The notes beneath the pieces were generated by a model. That model made no database searches and was not told the DNA's origin. It saw only the letters and a list, made by a program, of their open reading frames with translations. Positions 16,658-30,705 of a stretch of DNA of 64,000 bases are shown piece by piece. Origin of the DNA: Paramagnetospirillum marisnigri. Lineage in GTDB: Bacteria > Pseudomonadota > Alphaproteobacteria > Rhodospirillales > Magnetospirillaceae. The DNA is taken from the NCBI RefSeq assembly GCF_001650715.1, contig NZ_LWQT01000109.1:62001-126000 (forward strand), in the 5' to 3' direction. Each line of letters starts with the position of its first letter. Position 1 is the stretch's first letter. The position numbers were made by a program, and so were the translations under genes.

Positions 16658-19402
16658 ATGCTGGATAAGGTATCCGTCCAACGGAAATCGGTCCCGACCT
16701 ATTGCTACAACTGCGTCGCCGGTCCTGACCTGATGTGCGTCACGGTCGAGGATGGCGTGGCGGTATCGGTTTCTCCCAACCATGCCGGGGTCGGCATCCA
16801 CCCCGCCGATGGGCGGCCCTGCGTCAAGGCCTATGGCCTGGTGCAGAAGACCTATAATCCGAACCGGGTCCTGACCCCCATGAAACGCACCAACCCGAAA
16901 AAGGGGCGCCACGAGGACCCAGGCTTCGTCGCCATTTCGTGGGACGAGGCCCTGGACATGGTGGCGGCCAAGCTGCGGAGCCTGCGCGAGGCCGGACTGC
17001 TCAACGCCCAGGGCATGCCGCGCCTTGCCGCCACCTTCGGCCATGGCGGCACCCCGGCCAATTACATGGGCACCCTGCCCGCCCTGCTGGCGGCCTGGGG
17101 GCCCATCGACTTCAGCTTCGGCTCGGGCCAGGGCGTCAAATGCGTCCATTCCGAACATCTCTACGGCGAGTATTGGCATCGCGCCTTCACCGTCTGCGCC
17201 GATACGGTGCACACCAATTTCATCGTCTCGTTCGGAACCAATGTGGAGGTGTCGGGCGGCCCCTGCGCCGTGCGCCGCCATGCCGATGCCCGGGTGCGCG
17301 GCATCAAGCGGGTACAGGTGGAGCCGCATCTGTCGCCCACCGGCGCCTGTTCCGCCCAATGGGTGCCCATCCGGCCCAAGACCGACCCCGCCTTCATGTT
17401 CGCCATGCTGAACGTGATGCTGCACGAGGCGCCACGCGCGGCCCTCGACCTCGACTTCTTGCGATCCCGCACCGCCTCGCCCTATCTGGTGGGGCCGGAC
17501 GGCTATTACCTGCGCGATCCCGACACCGCCAAGCCGCTGATCTGGGACACACTCAGCGGGGGGCCGGTGCCGTTCGACCACGCGAGCGCCGTTCCAGCGC
17601 TGGAGGGCAGCTTCACCGTCACCCGCGCCATCAGCCAGCTCCCCGACGGCGAGACCGCGACGCACGACTCAGCTCCGGCGCGGCCCAGCTTCGCCGTGCT
17701 GGTGGACGCCATGGCGCCCTATACCCCCGACTGGGCGGCCCAGGTCTGCGACGTTCCCGCCGCCACCATCCGGGGTGTGGCGCTGGAATACCTGGAGAAT
17801 GCCTGCGTCGGCCAGACCATCGAGGTGGATGGCAAGACCCTGCCCTTCCGCCCGGTGGCGGTGACCCTGGGCAAGACCGTCAACAACGGCTGGGGCGCCT
17901 ATGAATGCTGCTGGGCGCGCACGGTGCTGGCCACCTTGGTGGGGGCGCTGGAAGTGCCGGGCGGCACGCTGGGCACCACGGTGCGGCTCAACCGCCCCTT
18001 CGAGAACCGTCTGAAAAGCGTCAAGCCGGGCGTCGACGGCTTCATGAACGCCCAGATGAACAGCACCACCAAGGGCAAATGGGCCGACAAGCCCAAGGGG
18101 CGCAACGCCCATACCACCCTGATCCCCATCGTCGGCGATTCATCCTGGGCGCAAGCCTTGGGGCCGACCCATCTGGCCTGGATGTTCCTGAAGGAGGCCC
18201 CCGGCGAGTGGGAAGCCCCCGAGCCCCCCGACGTGTGGATCGCCTATCGCACCAATCCGGCGGTGTCGTTCTGGGACACCAGCCAGTTGACCGACAACAT
18301 GGCCAAGATGCCGTTCGTGGTGGCCTTCGCCTATACCATGGACGAGACCAACCACATGGCCGATGTGCTGCTGCCCGAGGCCACCGACCTGGAAAGTACC
18401 CAGCTGATCCGGGCGGGCGGCACCAAATTCGTCGAGCAGCATTGGGCCCATCACGGCTTCGTGCTGCGCCAGCCCGCCGTCGAGCCCATGGGCGAATCCC
18501 GCGACTTCACCTGGATCACCACCGAACTGGCCCGCCGCACCGGCCTGCTGGAGGGCTACAACAAAGCCATCAACCGGGGCGCGGCGCTGGTGCCGCTGAA
18601 AGGCGAGGGCTTCGACTTCAGCCTGGCCGAGGACCAGGCCCACGGCGTTGACGAGATCTGGGACGCGGTGTGCAAGGCCGCCACTGCCTCGCTGACCGGC
18701 GGAAGCGAGGTCAAGGACCTGGACTGGATGAAGGAGAACGGCTTCTTCGTGGTGCCCTTCACCCGCGACGACTGGTACCTGCACCCCACCATGGTGGAGC
18801 AGAATCTGCGCTATGAACTGCCCTATCAGGAACGGCTGATGCGGGTGGGCGAGGAACTGGGCCGCCGCCTGCACGAGGCCGGCATTTACTGGTGGGACGA
18901 GCAGTTGGAGGAATACCAGGGCATTCCCCATTGGCACGACGTGCCCGGCCGCTGGGTGAAGGCGGTGGAAAAGGCGGGCGCCGACCCGGCCGACTTCCCG
19001 TTCTGGGGCATCACCACCAAGACCATGCCCTACACCACCGGCAACAATGCGGGCATCCCGCTGATGAACGAGGTAGCGGGCAATCTGCGCGGCCACGGCT
19101 CGGTGATCATCAACGCATCCTCCGCCCGCAAGCTGGGCATCCAGGACGGCGACCGGGTCGAGGTCAGTTCAGTGGTTGGCTCCACCCGGGGCAAGGCCGC
19201 CCTGGTCCAGGGCTGCCGCCCCGACACCATCGTCATTCCCGGCCAGTTCCAGCACTGGAAGACCCCCTTCGCCAAGGACCTCGCCTTCCCGTCGCTCAAC
19301 GCCATTTCGCAGATGTCACTGGACCTCACCGACGCCACCGGCTCGGGCGCCGATGTGGTGCGGGTGGCGGTGCGCAAGCTGGACGTGGGAGAAGAGCCAT
19401 GA
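16658..19402 (+). CDS. padB: Phenylacetyl-CoA:acceptor oxidoreductase, molybdopterin subunit
   Basis: The product has 914 residues of the DMSO-reductase superfamily. The N-terminal cluster motif has C16, C19, C27 and C55. C162 in GVKCVHSEH is a candidate molybdenum ligand. A C-terminal molydopterin-dinucleotide-binding domain contains GNLRGHGSVIINASSARKLG. The order PadB-PadC-PadD plus linkage to padEFGHI identifies it as the catalytic subunit that oxidises phenylacetyl-CoA to phenylglyoxylate, a four-electron step to quinones, releasing CoA. GGGAGGAG precedes the ATG. No twin-arginine signal is seen, which fits a cytoplasm-facing enzyme. Another four-electron oxidoreductase is possible but less likely given context. 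Confidence 0.85.
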   Translation: MLDKVSVQRKSVPTYCYNCVAGPDLMCVTVEDGVAVSVSPNHAGVGIHPADGRPCVKAYGLVQKTYNPNRVLTPMKRTNPKKGRHEDPGFVAISWDEALDMVAAKLRSLREAGLLNAQGMPRLAATFGHGGTPANYMGTLPALLAAWGPIDFSFGSGQGVKCVHSEHLYGEYWHRAFTVCADTVHTNFIVSFGTNVEVSGGPCAVRRHADARVRGIKRVQVEPHLSPTGACSAQWVPIRPKTDPAFMFAMLNVMLHEAPRAALDLDFLRSRTASPYLVGPDGYYLRDPDTAKPLIWDTLSGGPVPFDHASAVPALEGSFTVTRAISQLPDGETATHDSAPARPSFAVLVDAMAPYTPDWAAQVCDVPAATIRGVALEYLENACVGQTIEVDGKTLPFRPVAVTLGKTVNNGWGAYECCWARTVLATLVGALEVPGGTLGTTVRLNRPFENRLKSVKPGVDGFMNAQMNSTTKGKWADKPKGRNAHTTLIPIVGDSSWAQALGPTHLAWMFLKEAPGEWEAPEPPDVWIAYRTNPAVSFWDTSQLTDNMAKMPFVVAFAYTMDETNHMADVLLPEATDLESTQLIRAGGTKFVEQHWAHHGFVLRQPAVEPMGESRDFTWITTELARRTGLLEGYNKAINRGAALVPLKGEGFDFSLAEDQAHGVDEIWDAVCKAATASLTGGSEVKDLDWMKENGFFVVPFTRDDWYLHPTMVEQNLRYELPYQERLMRVGEELGRRLHEAGIYWWDEQLEEYQGIPHWHDVPGRWVKAVEKAGADPADFPFWGITTKTMPYTTGNNAGIPLMNEVAGNLRGHGSVIINASSARKLGIQDGDRVEVSSVVGSTRGKAALVQGCRPDTIVIPGQFQHWKTPFAKDLAFPSLNAISQMSLDLTDATGSGADVVRVAVRKLDVGEEP

Positions 19403-20262
19403 GCGCCGCCAGCATGGATCACCCCCTCGCCGCCGAGGGCCACAGCCCGCCCGCCACCGCCGCCATGGCCGAGGTGGTGGTGGAGCGCTGGTGCGCCGGC
19501 ATCGCCGAGGACGGGCTGGACTGGGCCGCCGCCGAGCTGCCGGTCAGCCTGGACTATAACGGCCTGTCCCATGCGGTGATGCTGGCCTCGCCCGCGGACC
19601 TGGAAGACTTCGCCCTGGGCTTCAGCCTGACCGAGGCCATCGTGACACGGCCGGGCGACATCCTGGACCTGAGCGTCTCCACCGTCGCCAACGGAATCAG
19701 GGTCGAGATGCGCATTCCCGAGCGCCGCTTCCACGCCCTGAAGCAGCGACGGCGCTCGCTGGCCGGGCGCACCGGCTGTGGCTTGTGCGGCACCGAAAGC
19801 CTGGCCCAGGTGTTCCGCCCCATGGCCCCGGTGCGCAGCCGCGCCAGCCTGGAGCCCCAGGCCATCCAGCGCGGCTTCGTCGATCTGGCCGCCGCCCAGG
19901 ATCTGCAACGCTGGACCGGCGCCACCCACGCCGCAGGATGGATCGACGCCCAGGGCCGAATGTCGCTATCGCGCGAGGATGTGGGCCGTCACAACGCCCT
20001 GGACAAGCTGATCGGCGCCCTGGCCGCCCGGGGAGAGGATTTGGGGAGCGGCGCGGTGGTGATCACCAGCCGCGCCAGTTCGGAAATGGTGCAAAAGGCC
20101 GCCAGCGTCGGCATCGGCATCCTGGCCGCCATCAGCGCCCCGACCCTGACCGCCATCGAACTGGCCCGCGATCTCGACCTGACCCTGCTGGGATTCGCCC
20201 GCCAGAACCGCCACGTCCTCTATGCCGGGCCGCAGCGCATCCGCCGGGGAGAGCCGTCATGA
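19399..20262 (+). CDS. fdhD: FdhD-family molybdoenzyme sulfurtransferase
   Basis: The protein has 287 residues. The key cysteine pair is C127 and C130 in CGLCG, and the family blocks DFALGFSLTEAIV, REDVGRHNALDKLIG and TSRASSEMVQKAA are present. FdhD moves sulfur from a cysteine desulfurase to the bis-molybdopterin-guanine cofactor and is known for activating formate dehydrogenases. Here it overlaps padB and padC by 4 bp each, so it is made with the PadBCD complex and probably sulfurates its cofactor (inference). No formate dehydrogenase is nearby. Confidence 0.9.
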   Translation: MSAASMDHPLAAEGHSPPATAAMAEVVVERWCAGIAEDGLDWAAAELPVSLDYNGLSHAVMLASPADLEDFALGFSLTEAIVTRPGDILDLSVSTVANGIRVEMRIPERRFHALKQRRRSLAGRTGCGLCGTESLAQVFRPMAPVRSRASLEPQAIQRGFVDLAAAQDLQRWTGATHAAGWIDAQGRMSLSREDVGRHNALDKLIGALAARGEDLGSGAVVITSRASSEMVQKAASVGIGILAAISAPTLTAIELARDLDLTLLGFARQNRHVLYAGPQRIRRGEPS

Positions 20263-20912
20263 CCCGCTATGTCATGGTCGCCGATCTGCGCCGCTGCGTC
20301 GGCTGCCAGACCTGCACCGCGTCGTGCAAGGAGACCAACGGCACGCCCCCCGGCGTGCAATGGCGCCGCGTCCTCGACCTGGAAGCGGGGGACTATCCCG
20401 AGGTCAGCCGGGTTTTCGTCCCCACCGGCTGCCAGCATTGCGACCAGCCCCCCTGCGCCGAGGTCTGCCCGTCGACCGCCACCGCCAAGCGCGCCGATGG
20501 GCTGGTGACCATCGACTACGATATCTGCATCGGCTGCGGCTATTGCGCCATCTCGTGTCCCTACGAGGCCCGCTACAAGGTGGATTCGGCCCAGTTCGCC
20601 TATGGCGGATCGGCGGTGGACAGCGAACGGATCAAGTTCGACCCGGCCAGGATCGGCGTCGCCACCAAATGCACCTTCTGCATCGACCGCATCGATAGCG
20701 GGGTGGCGGCGGGCAAGCTGCCCGGCCGCGACCCCGAGGCCACCCCCGCCTGCGTCAATGCCTGCCTGTCGGGGGCGCTTCGCTTCGGCGATCTGCATGA
20801 CAAGGACAGCGCGGTCACCCGCCTGATCGCCGAGAACCAGTGGTTCCGCATGCATGAGGACGAGGGCACCGGACCGGGCTTCTATTACCTGTGGGACAAG
20901 GAACAGCCATGA
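20259..20912 (+). CDS. padC: Phenylacetyl-CoA:acceptor oxidoreductase, iron-sulfur subunit
   Basis: The protein has 217 residues and four [4Fe-4S] motifs of the DmsB/PhsB type: C13/C16/C19/C23, C58/C61/C66/C70, C90/C93/C96/C100, and CTFC with a later CVNAC. It should carry electrons from PadB to the membrane subunit PadD. It overlaps fdhD and padD by 4 bp each. Alone it could belong to several molybdoenzymes; the assignment rests on the operon. Confidence 0.87.
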   Translation: MTRYVMVADLRRCVGCQTCTASCKETNGTPPGVQWRRVLDLEAGDYPEVSRVFVPTGCQHCDQPPCAEVCPSTATAKRADGLVTIDYDICIGCGYCAISCPYEARYKVDSAQFAYGGSAVDSERIKFDPARIGVATKCTFCIDRIDSGVAAGKLPGRDPEATPACVNACLSGALRFGDLHDKDSAVTRLIAENQWFRMHEDEGTGPGFYYLWDKEQP

Positions 20913-21751
20913 AACAGATCAACACCGCCAAGCGGCAGCGCTTCTGGGACCTGCGGGCGGCGGGCAACTTCATCGGCGGCGGCACCGGCACCGGAATGCT
21001 GCTGGGCGCGGTGGCGGCCTCGGTCCTGGGCCTGGACATCACCATCCCCCTGGTGGTCGGCCTGGGCTTCGTCATGGCGGGCCTGTCCCTGGTCTGGCTG
21101 GAGATCGGCAAGCCCTGGCGGGCGCTGAATGTCTTCTTCCATCCCCAGACATCGTGGATGACCCGCGAAGGCATCCTGGCCGGGCCGCTGGCGCTGGCCA
21201 CCGCCGGATATGTGCTGTTCGGTCCCCCTGTCCTGCTGCCCGTCATCGCGGGGCTGGCCGCCGGATTCCTGTACTGCCAGGCCCGCATCCTGCGCGCGGC
21301 GCGGGGCATCCCCGCCTGGAAGCATCCCCGCTCCCTGCCGCTGATCGTCGTGACCGGCCTGGCCGAGGGCAGCGGCCTGCTCCTGCTATTGGTCTCGCCA
21401 CCCCCCATCCTGATCATCGCCGCCCTGGCGGCGGGTCTGGCGCGCGAGGTGGCGCTGGCCGCCTATCTCAAGGGGCTGGCCAAGGATGGCGCCCCCCAGG
21501 CCAGCCAGGAGGTGTTCACCGCCCGTCCCGCCCGGCTGGCGCGTCAGGCGGGCTGGGCCGGTCTAGCGCTGCTGGCCGTGGCGTTCGCGTTCGATCTGGG
21601 AGCGATGGCGGCGGCCGGGGGCGTGCTGTCGGCCGCCTCGGGTTGGGGATTGAAGGCCTTGCTGGTGACCCGCGCCGCCTTTACCAGGGGGCCGCGCATC
21701 ACCCATACCCCGGTGCGCGGGCGGGGCCTCAGCCGGGTGGTCGAGGCCTAA
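20909..21751 (+). CDS. padD: Phenylacetyl-CoA:acceptor oxidoreductase, membrane anchor subunit
   Basis: The protein has 280 residues and about eight hydrophobic helices, resembling DmsC/NrfD-type anchors. It starts RFWDLRAAGNFIGGGTGTG, and KPWRALNVFFHPQTSWMTREG is a conserved DmsC-like block. It probably fixes PadBC to the cytoplasmic membrane and passes electrons to quinone. The ATG overlaps the padC stop. It ends the padB-fdhD-padC-padD operon and overlaps the convergent MBL-hemerythrin gene by 4 bp. Confidence 0.84.
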   Translation: MKQINTAKRQRFWDLRAAGNFIGGGTGTGMLLGAVAASVLGLDITIPLVVGLGFVMAGLSLVWLEIGKPWRALNVFFHPQTSWMTREGILAGPLALATAGYVLFGPPVLLPVIAGLAAGFLYCQARILRAARGIPAWKHPRSLPLIVVTGLAEGSGLLLLLVSPPPILIIAALAAGLAREVALAAYLKGLAKDGAPQASQEVFTARPARLARQAGWAGLALLAVAFAFDLGAMAAAGGVLSAASGWGLKALLVTRAAFTRGPRITHTPVRGRGLSRVVEA

Positions 21752-24375
21752 TACAATCCCTTGGAATTGAGGAAGACAGCGGCGCGGTGATCGTCGGACA
21801 GGGTGTGGCCGACGATCCATTCCTGCAGGAAGGTGAGAATCTCCACCTCGCTGTAGCCCAGTCCCTTGGCGATGGACTCCTGCATCTCCTCAAGCTGTTG
21901 CATCAGCTTGGCATGGCGCGATCGATGGCCGGGCAAATCAGGATATTTGTAGCGGATCATCAATCCCTCTTCCTCGCCGAAATGGAAGCGGGCGTATTCA
22001 CACAGCAGCCCCATGTTTTCCGCCACATCGGCGTGGGGCGAACGCCGCTCCATCAGATCGAGCACGGAATTGGCGATCTCGAACAGACGGCGATGATGGG
22101 CGTCGATGCGCTGCACCCCCACTGAATACTCGTCATGCCATTTGATCAGCACCCGGGCATGCTCGCCCGCCTCGACCATGGCGCGCGAGCGCTTGGTGCT
22201 GGCCTCGAACAACTTCCAACGCACCGAGGGAATGTCACGCAGGGAATGGGCAGGAACCTTGAACACCTCGCAGGGCTCCAGACTGCGAATCCGCAGCAGG
22301 CTGGGGGTATTGAAGATCGCGGTTTCCTCGCCGAAGAAGTCGCCGCTTTTCAGGGTCTCGAACATATGGTCGCCGAGGAAACGCCCGGCGCTGCCCGACT
22401 TGATCATCCCCACCATATCGTTGCCGACATCGATCACCTCGTCGGCCTTGATCGTGCAGGTGCTGATCGACTGGGCGATGCGGTTCAGAGACTTGGACGA
22501 CACCACTTCGCCGAACAGACTGGTGCGCATCAGGAATTCGCGATGCTCCACCAGCCGCGAGACACCATGGAAAACGTCGTTGCGCCGCACGAATTCGGAA
22601 TACAGCGAACAGGGAATAGCCAGCGCCTGCACGAAACTGGCGGCGCGATAGGTCTCGGACGCGGCGGCGCCGAACAGGCCGGACAACTCGCCGATCAAGG
22701 CCCCCGCCGAGAGCACGGAACGCATCTCGATCTCGATGGGGATCATCTCGACACTGCCAGACAGCAGCAGATAGATCTGGTCGTTGACCAACCTTTCCTT
22801 CACCAGGATGGTGCCGGGATTGAAGGTTACCACCGGGTTGTTCAGCAATACCCGGATCTGGTGGCGGGGAATGCCGGGGAAATAAGCATCCAGCGCCTCA
22901 TAGGCATAGGGCCAGATGAAATCGTGGTTGGACGGGATCAGGACATCCATGGTGCCGAACGAGGCCGACGAGCCGATGGCCTTCTGGGCCCGGGTATTGC
23001 GCTGCGAGGTATGGGCCAGGATGATCTTGCCCGAGGCGTCGTCGCGGAAATCATAGGCGTCGCCATGGATCATGCCGCCGCCCACGTCGATCTTCTTCAC
23101 ATCGGCCGGTTCGGAATAATCCTTGATGACCTGCTCATACATGGCCTGGCTGATGCCCGGCACCTTGGGATCCTCGGTGATGAACCCCTGCAACACCGAC
23201 AACCGCGCGATATCGGCCATATGGCAATAAGTGCGGTAGCCGTTCTCCCACATGGCGCGGAAACGCATGATGGTGGTTTCCACCGGATGGGGCGAGAAAA
23301 CCGGCATCACCTCCAGCCCCTCGATATGGTTCCACTCCCCCTCGGTCAGTTCACAGACGTCGAAATAATCGCCGAACGCCTCTTCCTCGATGGACAGCAG
23401 GGCCGCAACCTTCTTGGCCACCGAGGCCTTCACCAGCGGTGAGGCGTAGTATTTCAGCTTGTGGTCCGAACGGATCAGGGTGGTCAGTCCGGCGAAGTGG
23501 TCGTCGTGGGAATGGGTATGGAAGATACCTTCGATCTCGTTGACGCCGATCCCCAGCGCGTTGAGCGAGTAAAGGATGTTTGGCCCGGCATCCACCAGAT
23601 AGACCTTGCCCTGGAACATCAGGATCGAGGCCATGCTGGGACGGTTGATGTCCCAGCCATCCCCCTCGCCGCAATGGATCACCGCGAAATACTCGCGACG
23701 CAGGCGATAGAAGCCAAGGGGATAAGGCGCCTCATAGGTCTCGAACGACGGCAGGTTCAAATCCACCACCGCCGTCTCGCCCTGATAGGAAAACTCGAAG
23801 ACGTTGAACAGCATGCGCCGCACATGCACCCCGTTGCGAATCTCCACCGGGTCGGTGTCCACCACCAAAGTGTCCAGCAGATCACCGGGATGGCGGATTT
23901 GGCCGAAGGCGAAGCGCAGCTTCATCCGCATCAGCTCGCGGGCCCGTTCGGGCGTCGCCCCCGCCTCGATGATCTCCTCCTCGGTGACCAGCCCGTAATT
24001 GCCGCGATAGATGTACTGCATCTGGGCCTGGACCTGATCGGCACTGCCGATCAGCAAGGGCTTGCAGCCAGTGTTTCCCGGGTGGTTAGGCAGGATCATG
24101 CCCTGGCGATAGAGCATCTGCAGCACCGGAAACTCCGCCAGATTGGAGAAGTTGCCGTTCTGCACCATGGCATCGGACAGCAAGATGGCGTTGGGGCCGG
24201 TCTCGAATGGCACGCCATTGGACTCGGTCGAGACGATCAGTCCCCGCTTCATCAGATGCTTGACCGCATCGGCGGGACAGCCGCAGAGAATAAAGACCCC
24301 GGCCTGAGGAGCCTCGATCCACCAGACGCCGGTGGTTACTTCGATCTTACGCAGCAGCGGCACCCGCTCCTCCAA
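21748..24375 (-). CDS. MBL-fold / double cNMP-binding / hemerythrin fusion protein
   Basis: The product has 875 residues with an unusual set of domains. Residues about 190-500 form a metallo-beta-lactamase fold with T-H288-S-H290-D-D-H293 and further histidines at 363, 385, 455 and 484. Two cyclic-nucleotide-binding-like domains follow, at about 510-610 (GALIGELSGLFG, RAAS) and 630-720 (GDFFGEETAIF); the second lacks the usual phosphate-cassette arginine. Residues about 745-870 are a bacteriohemerythrin with all likely iron ligands (H761, H798, E802, H817, H821, H857, D862). It may sense O2 or NO and gate a metal hydrolase. The start is uncertain: TTG at 24375 is the best in-frame option, and the first ATG is at residue 42. 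Confidence 0.82.
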   Translation of the reverse strand: MEERVPLLRKIEVTTGVWWIEAPQAGVFILCGCPADAVKHLMKRGLIVSTESNGVPFETGPNAILLSDAMVQNGNFSNLAEFPVLQMLYRQGMILPNHPGNTGCKPLLIGSADQVQAQMQYIYRGNYGLVTEEEIIEAGATPERARELMRMKLRFAFGQIRHPGDLLDTLVVDTDPVEIRNGVHVRRMLFNVFEFSYQGETAVVDLNLPSFETYEAPYPLGFYRLRREYFAVIHCGEGDGWDINRPSMASILMFQGKVYLVDAGPNILYSLNALGIGVNEIEGIFHTHSHDDHFAGLTTLIRSDHKLKYYASPLVKASVAKKVAALLSIEEEAFGDYFDVCELTEGEWNHIEGLEVMPVFSPHPVETTIMRFRAMWENGYRTYCHMADIARLSVLQGFITEDPKVPGISQAMYEQVIKDYSEPADVKKIDVGGGMIHGDAYDFRDDASGKIILAHTSQRNTRAQKAIGSSASFGTMDVLIPSNHDFIWPYAYEALDAYFPGIPRHQIRVLLNNPVVTFNPGTILVKERLVNDQIYLLLSGSVEMIPIEIEMRSVLSAGALIGELSGLFGAAASETYRAASFVQALAIPCSLYSEFVRRNDVFHGVSRLVEHREFLMRTSLFGEVVSSKSLNRIAQSISTCTIKADEVIDVGNDMVGMIKSGSAGRFLGDHMFETLKSGDFFGEETAIFNTPSLLRIRSLEPCEVFKVPAHSLRDIPSVRWKLFEASTKRSRAMVEAGEHARVLIKWHDEYSVGVQRIDAHHRRLFEIANSVLDLMERRSPHADVAENMGLLCEYARFHFGEEEGLMIRYKYPDLPGHRSRHAKLMQQLEEMQESIAKGLGYSEVEILTFLQEWIVGHTLSDDHRAAVFLNSKGLY

Positions 24376-24509
24376 GCATGGCGGCGAAGAAGTGACGATC
24401 CCGCAAAGGGTTCCCGCCCATCCGGTTACGTCATTCTACCTATATATCACGGGAGCGTTAACGAAACACCCACTCTCCGAAGGATAGATCGCTACTAAAT
24501 TGCGAGGAT

Positions 24510-24683
24510 TCAAGGCGCTGCGGATGCCGTTCGCGTCGGGGCCGAGCGCAGGTCGACCAAACCTACGGCAGGGGAGAACACCACGGTGATGGCAAGGGCA
24601 AGGCCGCATACAAGGGCAAGGAGCAAACGACGCCCCAACTCTCCGCGATGCGCGTCCGTGGCGACACTCTCAAGGCTGTTCAT
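24510..24683 (-). CDS. Hypothetical small single-helix membrane protein
   Basis: This is a 57-codon frame from ATG to TGA. A charged N-terminus is followed by one hydrophobic segment (LLLALVCGLALAITVVFSP) and a short tail. It fills the otherwise empty 528-bp gap between the MBL-hemerythrin gene and padE. The Shine-Dalgarno sequence is weak. I do not recognise a family. It is plausible as a gene because of its composition and position, but not proven. Confidence 0.4.
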   Translation of the reverse strand: MNSLESVATDAHRGELGRRLLLALVCGLALAITVVFSPAVGLVDLRSAPTRTASAAP

Positions 24684-24767
24684 TGACCCGCACCCTATCC
24701 CAAAGGATTAGAAACTATACGTTGGGCGCAAAGATGGCGTTTTTTCCCGTCCAGGTCCATCCTTTTT

Positions 24768-24809
24768 TGTATCGCACTCACGAGGCTGCAGACCATCGAA
24801 AGCGATACA
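24768..24809. promoter_or_regulatory. Inverted repeat upstream of padE
   Basis: TGTATCGC (24768-24775) and GCGATACA (24802-24809) are perfect 8-bp arms, 34 bp centre to centre, in the AT-rich leader of the padEFGHI operon. GATACA also occurs upstream of the PaaX-type gene (15393-15398). It is a candidate operator, perhaps of that regulator. Further down, GCCGGA/TCCGGC (24863-24883) could form a hairpin in the padE leader. Confidence 0.4.
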
Positions 24810-24903
24810 GATTTTAGCTTTGACTTCCAAATATGTAATTATGTACCTTAATACCTAATTAGGCCGGACGCCAATGATCCGGCAAGAGGGAGGATGAGAA
24901 GGC

Positions 24904-25476
24904 ATGCACGAAGTACGCCTTCATGGTCGGGGCGGCCAGGGTGCCGTCCTGGCTTCGGCCATACTTGCCGCCGCCTTGGTGGAGGAAGGCCGACACGTCA
25001 TGGCCATCCCGGCCTTCGGCTTCGAACGCCGCGGCGCCCCGGTGGTGGCCTTCTTGCGTCTTTCCGATACGGAAATTCGCCGGGTCACCAATATCTATGC
25101 GCCGGATATCGTGGTGGTGATCGATCCGACCGTCGCTCGCGCCGTCGATGTCTATGCGGGCATGCCCATGGGCGGCACCCTGGTGATGGCCACCAGCAAG
25201 CACGCCGACGAGTTGGTGCTTCCCCCCCATCTCGGCAAGGTGGCGGTGTGCAATGCCATCCATATCGCCATGGACATCTTCAAGCGCCAGATCACCAACA
25301 CCATCATGCTGGGCGCCTTCGCCAAGGCCACCGGTCTGGTCTCGGTGGCATCGCTGGAACATGCCCTGGCCGAGACCGATTTCCGCGACGCCGGGCTGCG
25401 CCAGAATATCGAGGCGGTGCGACGCGGCTATGAAGAGACCACCGTTGTCACCCTGGGCAAGGAACAGGCGGCATGA
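24904..25476 (+). CDS. padE: Phenylglyoxylate dehydrogenase, gamma subunit
   Basis: The protein has 190 residues of the 2-oxoacid:acceptor oxidoreductase gamma family. It begins EVRLHGRGGQGAVLASAILAAAL and has AFGFERRGAPVVAF. It forms part of the thiamine-diphosphate enzyme that converts phenylglyoxylate and CoA to benzoyl-CoA and CO2. The gene order gamma-delta-alpha-FAD subunit-beta is the padEFGHI order of denitrifying phenylacetate degraders. GGGAGGATGAGAAGGC precedes the ATG. The gene overlaps padF by 4 bp. Confidence 0.9.
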   Translation: MHEVRLHGRGGQGAVLASAILAAALVEEGRHVMAIPAFGFERRGAPVVAFLRLSDTEIRRVTNIYAPDIVVVIDPTVARAVDVYAGMPMGGTLVMATSKHADELVLPPHLGKVAVCNAIHIAMDIFKRQITNTIMLGAFAKATGLVSVASLEHALAETDFRDAGLRQNIEAVRRGYEETTVVTLGKEQAA

Positions 25477-29880: not shown

Positions 29881-30705
29881 CTAGCCGTGGACGGTTCTGG
29901 AGGTCCGGGCGGCGACGCCGCGCGACAACAGATGAATGCCGCCCAAGGTCGCGACCCAGGCCAGCAGTTGGGCCATGCTGGGGCGGTCGACATAGCCGAT
30001 CAGGGTATGGGCGAGACGGCCGGGCAGGCTGGTTTCCTGCAGCAGGGCCGAACTGTCCCACACCGGCTGCGACGACAGGTCCAGCCATCCGGCGGCGTCC
30101 AGGAAGTTCACCGCCTGGGCCGCCATGCCCGCCGCCAGCAGCATCACCAGCCAGGTGGTGACGCCGATCAGGCGGCGAACCGGAATGCGGACCAGCCCCA
30201 TATAGAGCAGGCTGCCCATGGCCGCCCCGGCCGCCAGCCCCAGGACGCAGCCCGCCAGGGTGGCCAGCGGTCCCTCGGTCGCCGATGCCGTGGTCCCCAG
30301 GACGAACAGCACCGTCTCGGCGCCCTCGCGCAGCACCGCCACGCCGACCACCACCGCCAGCACCCAAAGCGGCCGGTCGCCCGCCGTGACCTGCCGACCG
30401 ACGCCGGTCATCTCGGCCACCAGTTCGCGGGCATGGCTTTGCATCCAGGCCGTGTGCCAGGCCAGCATCGCCACCGCCAGCCCCAGAATGGCGGCGTTGA
30501 ACAGTTCCTGGCCGACACCGTCCATGGCGCCGCTCAGACGTTCCGCCCCCAGCGCCAACAGCGCCGAGCCCAAAACCCCGATGGCGATGCCAAGACCGAC
30601 CCAGCGGCGGCTGGCGGCAACCCCCTTGGTGGCGGCCAGCACGATGCCGATGATCAAGGCGGCTTCAAGAACCTCGCGAAAGACGATGATGGTAGCGGCC
30701 AACAT
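29881..30705 (-). CDS. FTR1-family iron permease
   Basis: The protein has 274 residues and about seven membrane helices. Two REXXE-type iron-binding motifs appear: REVLEA at the N-terminus (ATIIVFREVLEAALIIGIVLA) and REGAE in the fourth helix (LREGAETVLFVLG). FTR1/EfeU proteins import ferric or oxidised iron. The usual partners EfeO and EfeB are absent. It lies between padI (convergent) and livF (same strand, upstream). High iron demand by the many iron-sulfur enzymes here would fit, but that link is only inference. Confidence 0.88.
   Translation of the reverse strand: MLAATIIVFREVLEAALIIGIVLAATKGVAASRRWVGLGIAIGVLGSALLALGAERLSGAMDGVGQELFNAAILGLAVAMLAWHTAWMQSHARELVAEMTGVGRQVTAGDRPLWVLAVVVGVAVLREGAETVLFVLGTTASATEGPLATLAGCVLGLAAGAAMGSLLYMGLVRIPVRRLIGVTTWLVMLLAAGMAAQAVNFLDAAGWLDLSSQPVWDSSALLQETSLPGRLAHTLIGYVDRPSMAQLLAWVATLGGIHLLSRGVAARTSRTVHG

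Follow-up and report, generated by a model that had tools for sequence, protein, structure and literature searches.

A widespread bacterial family of putative hemerythrin-gated metallo-β-lactamase hydrolases carrying two cyclic-nucleotide-binding folds

A 64,000-nucleotide stretch of the Paramagnetospirillum marisnigri genome (contig NZ_LWQT01000109.1, positions 62,001 to 126,000; hereafter the window, whose own numbering we use) carries a minus-strand gene that encodes, in a single chain, an unnamed N-terminal domain (N-domain), a metallo-β-lactamase (MBL) hydrolase domain, two cyclic-nucleotide-binding (CNB) domains and a C-terminal bacteriohemerythrin. The gene is a member of a widespread bacterial family, and its product is probably a hemerythrin-gated signaling hydrolase. 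The explanation that we consider best, at about even confidence, is that of an O2- or redox-gated signal-transduction phosphodiesterase of the MBL type, whose messenger is most likely a 3',5'-cyclic nucleotide. The hemerythrin diiron site would respond to O2 or redox state, or perhaps to NO; two CNB folds that lack a canonical cyclic-phosphate site would relay the resulting change of conformation; and the two-metal MBL would then hydrolyze the phosphodiester messenger. We infer that the CNB domains act as a relay, and likewise the direction and sign of signaling and the substrate; the domain content, the conservation of both metal sites, the breadth of the family, the exchange of input modules and the phosphodiesterase-like MBL fold are directly supported by the results that follow.

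The 875-residue frame that an earlier note made from the letters of this DNA had described is open on the minus strand from 24375 to 21748, starting with a TTG. The likely start lies slightly downstream, at GTG 24363, because the ATG of four orthologues (L012, L013, L015 and L025) aligns exactly with this GTG, which is residue 5 of the frame; the predicted product thus has 871 rather than 875 residues. Residue numbers below count the TTG at 24375 as residue 1. The features of the gene are as follows.

21748..24363, minus strand: N-domain/MBL/CNB/CNB/hemerythrin gene; open reading frame with the likely start taken from orthologue comparison (875 residues if TTG 24375 is used)
23689..24354, minus strand: N-domain, residues 8-229, from conservation, boundary approximate; C31-G-C33 and H98 invariant or almost so
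22906..23688, minus strand: MBL hydrolase domain, about residues 230-490, from PF12706/PF00753, conservation and fold neighbors
23497..23520, minus strand: HxHxDH metal motif HTHSHDDH, residues 286-293; H288, H290, D292 and H293 in 148 of 148 proteins
22531..22905, minus strand: CNB domain 1, about residues 491-615; Glu563 of the phosphate-binding cassette (PBC) present, PBC Arg position occupied by A572
22162..22530, minus strand: CNB domain 2, about residues 616-738; PBC Glu683 present, PBC Arg position occupied by S692 by spacing
21769..22146, minus strand: bacteriohemerythrin domain, residues 744-869; TIGR02481, NF033749, and DcrH in the PDB (2avk, E 2e-13)

The union of an MBL and a hemerythrin in one chain, central to the earlier note, is borne out by matches above curated cutoffs: Pfam Lactamase_B_2 (PF12706, 33.7 bits against a gathering cutoff of 27), Lactamase_B (PF00753, 33.3 against 22.7) and Hemerythrin (42.7 against 25.3), and the NCBIfam bacteriohemerythrin models bact_hemeryth NF033749 (103.3 against 84) and TIGR02481 (108 against 51.75). 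The two cyclic-nucleotide-binding-like domains that had been seen in the translation were likewise recovered, cNMP_binding scoring 55.4 bits over two stretches (cutoff 27.5). The motif T287-H288-S-H290-D-D292-H293 is present as originally described, and all seven expected MBL ligands are in place (H288, H290, D292, H293, H363, D388 and H455, the roles of the last three being assigned from the motif, not from a metal-containing structure). So is the full set of hemerythrin iron ligands that had been claimed, comprising five His, one Glu and one Asp (H761, H798, E802, H817, H821, H857 and D862). The suggestion that the MBL domain might hydrolyze or reduce survives in its first half: because the ligands form the HxHxDH/H/D/H hydrolase set and the protein has no Pfam match to an ODP domain, reduction is unlikely.

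Both metal sites are conserved across a set of 148 proteins (from 146 loci, some of them near-copies), 108 of which have a hemerythrin and 40 of which do not. All seven MBL ligands, together with H385, K427, K428, D430 and H437, occur in 148 of 148, and each of the seven hemerythrin ligands is retained in 101 to 108 of the 108 hemerythrin-bearing proteins. An alignment of the window protein with 71 of 80 named loci (72 proteins, nine loci being omitted for brevity) shows that the N-domain and the MBL are the most conserved parts and the hemerythrin the least conserved domain, with a mean share of the commonest residue of 0.74 for the N-domain, 0.72 for the MBL, 0.60 and 0.51 for the first and second CNB domains and 0.47 for the hemerythrin.

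The search for the same architecture in other genomes that the earlier note had proposed was amply rewarded. The P. marisnigri genome itself holds three further copies, of which two are full, at 57% and 55% identity, and the third lacks hemerythrin. Family members were found in 27 of 40 related genomes, a count that includes P. marisnigri itself, and in 56 of 299 genomes sampled across the phylum. A scan of a species-genome collection gave at least 581 pattern matches and at least 529 related stretches, of which 80 loci were kept. By record title, holders among the matches listed include magnetospirilla, Magnetococcales, Desulfobacterales and their kin, sulfate-reducing bacteria, anammox bacteria and other Planctomycetota, Campylobacterota, Gallionella, Nitrospirota and Nitrospinia, among others. 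Many of these relatives come from metagenome bins, and odd single ones may be binning errors; one locus titled Stygiobacter (L037) lies within the Magnetospirillum branch of our tree and is a possible case. Plasmids gave no family match, and viruses gave three matches to the MBL, all weak and partial, at 27-34% identity. The listed full-length relatives share the domain order of the window protein. Given three paralogues, 27 of 40 related genomes and at least 529 related stretches, the gene is neither a chance frame nor an assembly join, and the possibility raised in the earlier note, that sequencing error had joined two genes, is ruled out by the open paralogues and the hundreds of related stretches. 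Among the individual loci, L065 (seemingly identical to record G022:C52) has two tandem family members, one with and one without hemerythrin, and one paralogue in the P. marisnigri genome (L010, 8965-13854) lies in a cluster that also encodes a free-standing bacteriohemerythrin, a protein with GGDEF and an MBL of the ODP family. The same 4.6-Mb genome holds 39 more hemerythrin-region matches beyond the four family copies.

Hemerythrin is one of several inputs found on this architecture. Many phylum-wide matches stop at profile position 725-740 although their frames run longer, and we took 20 such variants. A Pfam scan of ten found Response_reg in five, SBP_bac_3 in three and no recognized input domain in two, the core standing behind the receiver or the periplasmic SBP_bac_3 sensor; judged by sequence pattern and hydropathy, the 20 comprise 11 receiver forms, seven of SBP type, in which a membrane helix precedes the core, and two unclear cases. 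Because inputs as different as hemerythrin, a receiver and SBP_bac_3 attach to the same core, these observations point to the N-domain, MBL and paired CNB domains (the MBL-CNB2 core) as a signaling output unit with exchangeable inputs. The presence of other sensor or receiver modules on the same core also strengthens the proposal of the earlier note that a diiron sensor controls a metal hydrolase in one chain, which remains the best reading once its reductive option is set aside. In a tree of 117 distinct cores, built by a quick method with SH-aLRT values as the only support, the receiver, SBP and unclear forms fall together on one branch with support of 100, and the distribution of hemerythrin requires ten changes of presence, at least five of them forced by well-supported branches. 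With so many changes, and with the lowest conservation of any domain, hemerythrin appears unnecessary for the function of the core.

Neither CNB domain of the window protein is likely to be a canonical cyclic-nucleotide binder, because the PBC arginine is missing from each. In a HMMER alignment with SthK, the cassette GEMALILRAPRTAT of the first domain stands opposite GELSGLFGAAASET, and the position of the phosphate arginine is A572; none of the 72 aligned proteins and none of the 108 hemerythrin-bearing proteins has Arg there. At position 692 of the second domain (S692, by SthK spacing), Arg occurs in one of 72 and five of 108, respectively. The cassette Glu is nonetheless retained in 65 of the 72 aligned proteins in the first domain and in all 72 in the second. 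Among the seven SBP-type relatives, three have Arg at 572 and four have it at 692, and the first cassette of this group has lost the Glu. The earlier note had called the second cassette degenerate; its arginine is indeed missing, but the first domain lacks the residue equally. In the accessible text of a study of kinetoplastid PKA, nucleoside-binding regulatory subunits also miss the PBC arginine and carry a Glu at the position of A202 (PMC10959531). A nucleoside-binding CNB of this type was considered here and ruled out, the ribose-binding Glu being replaced: the positions matching A202 and A326 of PKA-RIα are S565 and T685, with Glu in one and three of the 72 aligned proteins, respectively.

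The structure prediction that had been suggested as a check yielded a confident AlphaFold2 model of the full-length protein (pLDDT 88, pTM 0.87) and another of the N-domain and MBL (pLDDT 91, pTM 0.90). Foldseek searches of the PDB grouped the CNB pair with PKA-R and PKG. For the N-domain and MBL model the top matches were RNase Z (1y44, E 2e-11), Apyc1, a PhnP-family diphosphatase, YhfI and PhnP, and the list also includes an arylsulfatase and PNGM-1 lactamase variants. As far as the accessible text of two reports goes, Apyc1, YhfI and Rv1339 are MBL cyclic-nucleotide phosphodiesterases with such a metal site (PMC9117128, PMC9293780). The N-domain is harder to place: residues 1-229 have no Pfam match above cutoff, its profile has no sequence match in the PDB, and a Pfam scan of 27 members gave scattered weak matches in one or two members only. 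It may be a degenerate MBL repeat like that of long RNase Z (ELAC2): its order of strands and helices was judged alike by eye, and one ELAC2 chain gave a query template-modeling score of 0.54 against about 0.38 for single MBLs, but a profile-profile comparison of the N-domain with the MBL half gave no support, scoring 6.7 against 11.6-25.2 for five column-shuffled controls.

We tentatively favor a cyclic mononucleotide as the substrate, with a little less than even confidence. A possible though rather unlikely alternative is that the MBL, still gated by hemerythrin, acts on something else: RNA ends, as RNase Z does, a cyclic dinucleotide, a sulfate or a lactone. The best fold match being RNase Z, the arylsulfatase further down the list and a match to the RNase Z model TIGR02651 (E 1.7e-10) all speak for it, even though the 40.5 bits of that match are far below the cutoff of 292.95; a search for same-class RNase Z genes as a comparison found them in 0 of 41 genomes at the chosen cutoff. 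Signaling domains near family members add to this side, GGDEF being found in five and EAL in three of 44 chosen neighbors (same-strand genes close by, including two that lie one gene beyond), counts that have no background rate; a link to c-di-GMP genes was for that reason not used as proof. Fusion to receivers, periplasmic sensors and hemerythrin would however be odd for a housekeeping RNA-processing enzyme, and the conserved partner of the mtx-linked copies is a nucleotide cyclase.

This partner is clearest at the hemerythrin-less paralogue of P. marisnigri (L011, 9818-18941), which closes a one-strand string of MtxA, a class III nucleotide cyclase with CHASE2 and Guanylate_cyc domains, a TPR-CHAT protein and MBL-CNB2. 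MtxA is named here by the Pfam model MtxA_C, "Magnetotaxis protein"; the word MtxA is absent from the magnetotaxis paper PMC6532209. We judge a CHAT protein next to a nucleotide-signaling pair to be unusual. A full hemerythrin-less copy occurs in 15 of 17 genomes of the genus, and all 15 of these have a Guanylate_cyc domain on the same contig at a distance of about 4 kb (two match lists paired by hand); the remaining two genomes have a partial hemerythrin-less copy and none, respectively. The CHASE2-cyclase and TPR-CHAT genes also lie upstream, on the same strand, at four loci with hemerythrin (L037, L040, L041 and L042), and with L070, L082 and L085 a cyclase is found in the examined flank of seven of the 80 named loci, spread over about four tree lineages. 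Against a background of 258 cyclase domains in the 40 related genomes (about 154 Mb in total, one to 16 per genome), eight cyclases were observed in 1.06 Mb of searched flanks where about two were expected. The excess near family loci is modest and partly reflects one inherited operon.

Several results count against cyclic-nucleotide hydrolysis under hemerythrin control. The missing PBC arginines mean that the CNB domains lend no support to cyclic-nucleotide sensing, and the weak conservation and frequent changes of the hemerythrin make it dispensable for the core function. The MBL is only distantly related to any named enzyme, scoring 18.2 bits against the Apyc1 model PF23023 (cutoff 50) as well as falling below the RNase Z cutoff. 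The 64-kb window contains no cyclase, and neither do the 20 kb surrounding the other two paralogues with hemerythrin in the same genome; the cyclase link, clearest for the hemerythrin-less paralogue, is mostly that of a single inherited operon.

A wider proposal, which we regard as possible but doubtful, is that the family forms an unnamed signaling class: a new N-domain, an MBL phosphodiesterase and two CNB folds that lack the usual phosphate site would serve as a general output module, coupled in different members to hemerythrin, to a receiver or, across the membrane, to a periplasmic sensor. In magnetospirilla the substrate would be the cyclic nucleotide that the CHASE2 cyclase next to MtxA produces, and its destruction would tie magnetotaxis and anaerobic metabolism to oxygen or redox state. 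If the signaling reading is correct, messengers of the cyclic-nucleotide type would gain a class of hydrolase under the control of O2 or redox state, of phosphorylation by a two-component system or of a ligand outside the cell. The magnetospirilla cyclase next to MtxA would then have a candidate enzyme working against it, and whether oxygen sensing and magnetotaxis are connected would become open to genetic test. A Magnetospirillum gryphiswaldense study lists MGMSRv2_1306, a cyclic-nucleotide-binding-domain gene of unknown function that may or may not belong to this family, with a value that is higher at low oxygen than at high oxygen (PMC5459824).

The genes around the window gene are as follows.

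16658-19402, plus strand: molybdopterin oxidoreductase, left of the window gene
19399-20262, plus strand: FdhD, left of the window gene
20259-20912, plus strand: iron-sulfur subunit gene, left of the window gene
20891..21751, plus strand: membrane-subunit gene (padD-like), convergent, with a 4-bp overlap with the stop of the window gene; no NCBIfam match
24904..25476, plus strand: padE, phenylglyoxylate dehydrogenase gamma, divergent; NF045762, 320.1 bits against a cutoff of 300

From their position, we take the left plus-strand genes to be padBCD-like. On the right, also on the plus strand, PadE, PadG, PadH and PadI of phenylglyoxylate dehydrogenase each score above their NCBIfam cutoff. The tail-to-tail arrangement on both sides that the earlier note had described therefore applies to the left membrane-subunit gene, which ends at 21751, but the gene stands head to head with padE (24904). 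PadI is present in 14 of the 17 genus genomes; 11 of the 14 have the nearest orthologue no more than about 5 kb from the PadI gene (two genome match lists paired by hand; one of the 11 orthologues is a fragment at a contig end). The orthologue is far off in two of the other three and on a separate contig in one, and three genomes of the genus without PadI still carry it. Since pad-like genes flank only seven of the 80 named loci, one of them weakly, the association is a habit of the genus, not a trait of the family.

Between the window gene and padE lies a minus-strand frame of 57 residues with one hydrophobic stretch (24510-24683), and resembling frames (39-47% over 47-56 residues) occur in the pad-linked L012, L013 and L025. 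No FNR-like site was found in the gap at 24376-24903 with up to two mismatches to the consensus; by the same measure the whole window has 22 FNR-box-like patterns against 11.25 expected, and none of 100 shuffles reaches 22. Beyond padI, a minus-strand gene at 29881-30705 resembles an EfeU/Ftr1-like ferrous iron transporter, with a match below the cutoffs.

This neighborhood bears on another explanation, that the hemerythrin is a scavenger of O2 or NO, or an iron store, protecting the MBL or the nearby oxygen-sensitive phenylglyoxylate and phenylacetyl-CoA enzymes. The proximity to padI in most PadI-bearing genomes of the genus and the many hemerythrin-like matches in the P. marisnigri genome fit it, yet we consider it improbable: pad-like flanks are rare in the family at large, a single fused chain is a poor scavenger, and the core recurs with receiver and SBP inputs in place of hemerythrin. 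A role of the MBL as a further redox or oxygen sensor, of ODP or flavodiiron type, instead of a hydrolase is very improbable, for although an ODP-family MBL occurs close to the paralogue of L010, together with a GGDEF protein and a free hemerythrin, HxHxDH with H363, D388 and H455 is present in 148 of 148 proteins where flavodiiron proteins have HxExDH, which rules out a flavodiiron or ODP reductase identity, no ODP match was found with Pfam, and the top fold neighbors are phosphodiesterases.

The hemerythrin-gated signaling hydrolase that we favor has, as far as we have searched, no published counterpart. The earlier note knew of no described protein with this arrangement, and we likewise found no title or abstract opening describing an MBL-CNB2-hemerythrin protein, most subscription journals lying outside the search. 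A 2022 review of hemerythrin sensors covers DcrH, Bhr-DGC, Bhr-HD-GYP and a P1B-5 ATPase, and its main text, where available, makes no mention of lactamase (PMC9388753); lactamase, cNMP and cyclic nucleotide are absent from the accessible main text of a survey of 56 hemerythrin architectures (PMC4919030). Within the reach of this search, the MBL-CNB2 protein is an undescribed, new output class for known hemerythrin sensors. Beyond the earlier note, the family, its modularity, the strong conservation of its first two domains, N-domain and MBL, and the association of a paralogue with a nucleotide cyclase are new.

According to the accessible text of the review, hemerythrin is a known input of c-di-GMP enzymes (PMC9388753): DcrH, Bhr-DGC, Bhr-HD-GYP and the P1B-5 ATPase all use a bacteriohemerythrin as input to an output domain, and Bhr-HD-GYP, like our protein, pairs it with a metal-dependent phosphodiesterase, whereas here the hemerythrin is C-terminal and the output is an MBL with two CNB domains and an unnamed N-domain. 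The atypical class II MBL phosphodiesterases YhfI, Rv1339 and Apyc1 share PF12706 and the HxHxDH two-metal site, and YhfI and Apyc1 are fold neighbors of our N-domain and MBL model, but the solved chains of these two have about 240-250 residues, whereas the MBL of the window protein is preceded by the N-domain and followed by the paired CNB domains and an input domain. RNase Z offers the nearest solved fold to that model; the window sequence is far under the RNase Z cutoff and its remaining domains are foreign to RNase Z. Tandem-CNB regulators such as PKA-R, PKG and the cAMP-independent PKA-R of kinetoplastids have the same two serial CNB folds, and kinetoplastid PKA-R shares the loss of the PBC arginine, but in the window protein these folds are joined to an MBL, not to a kinase.

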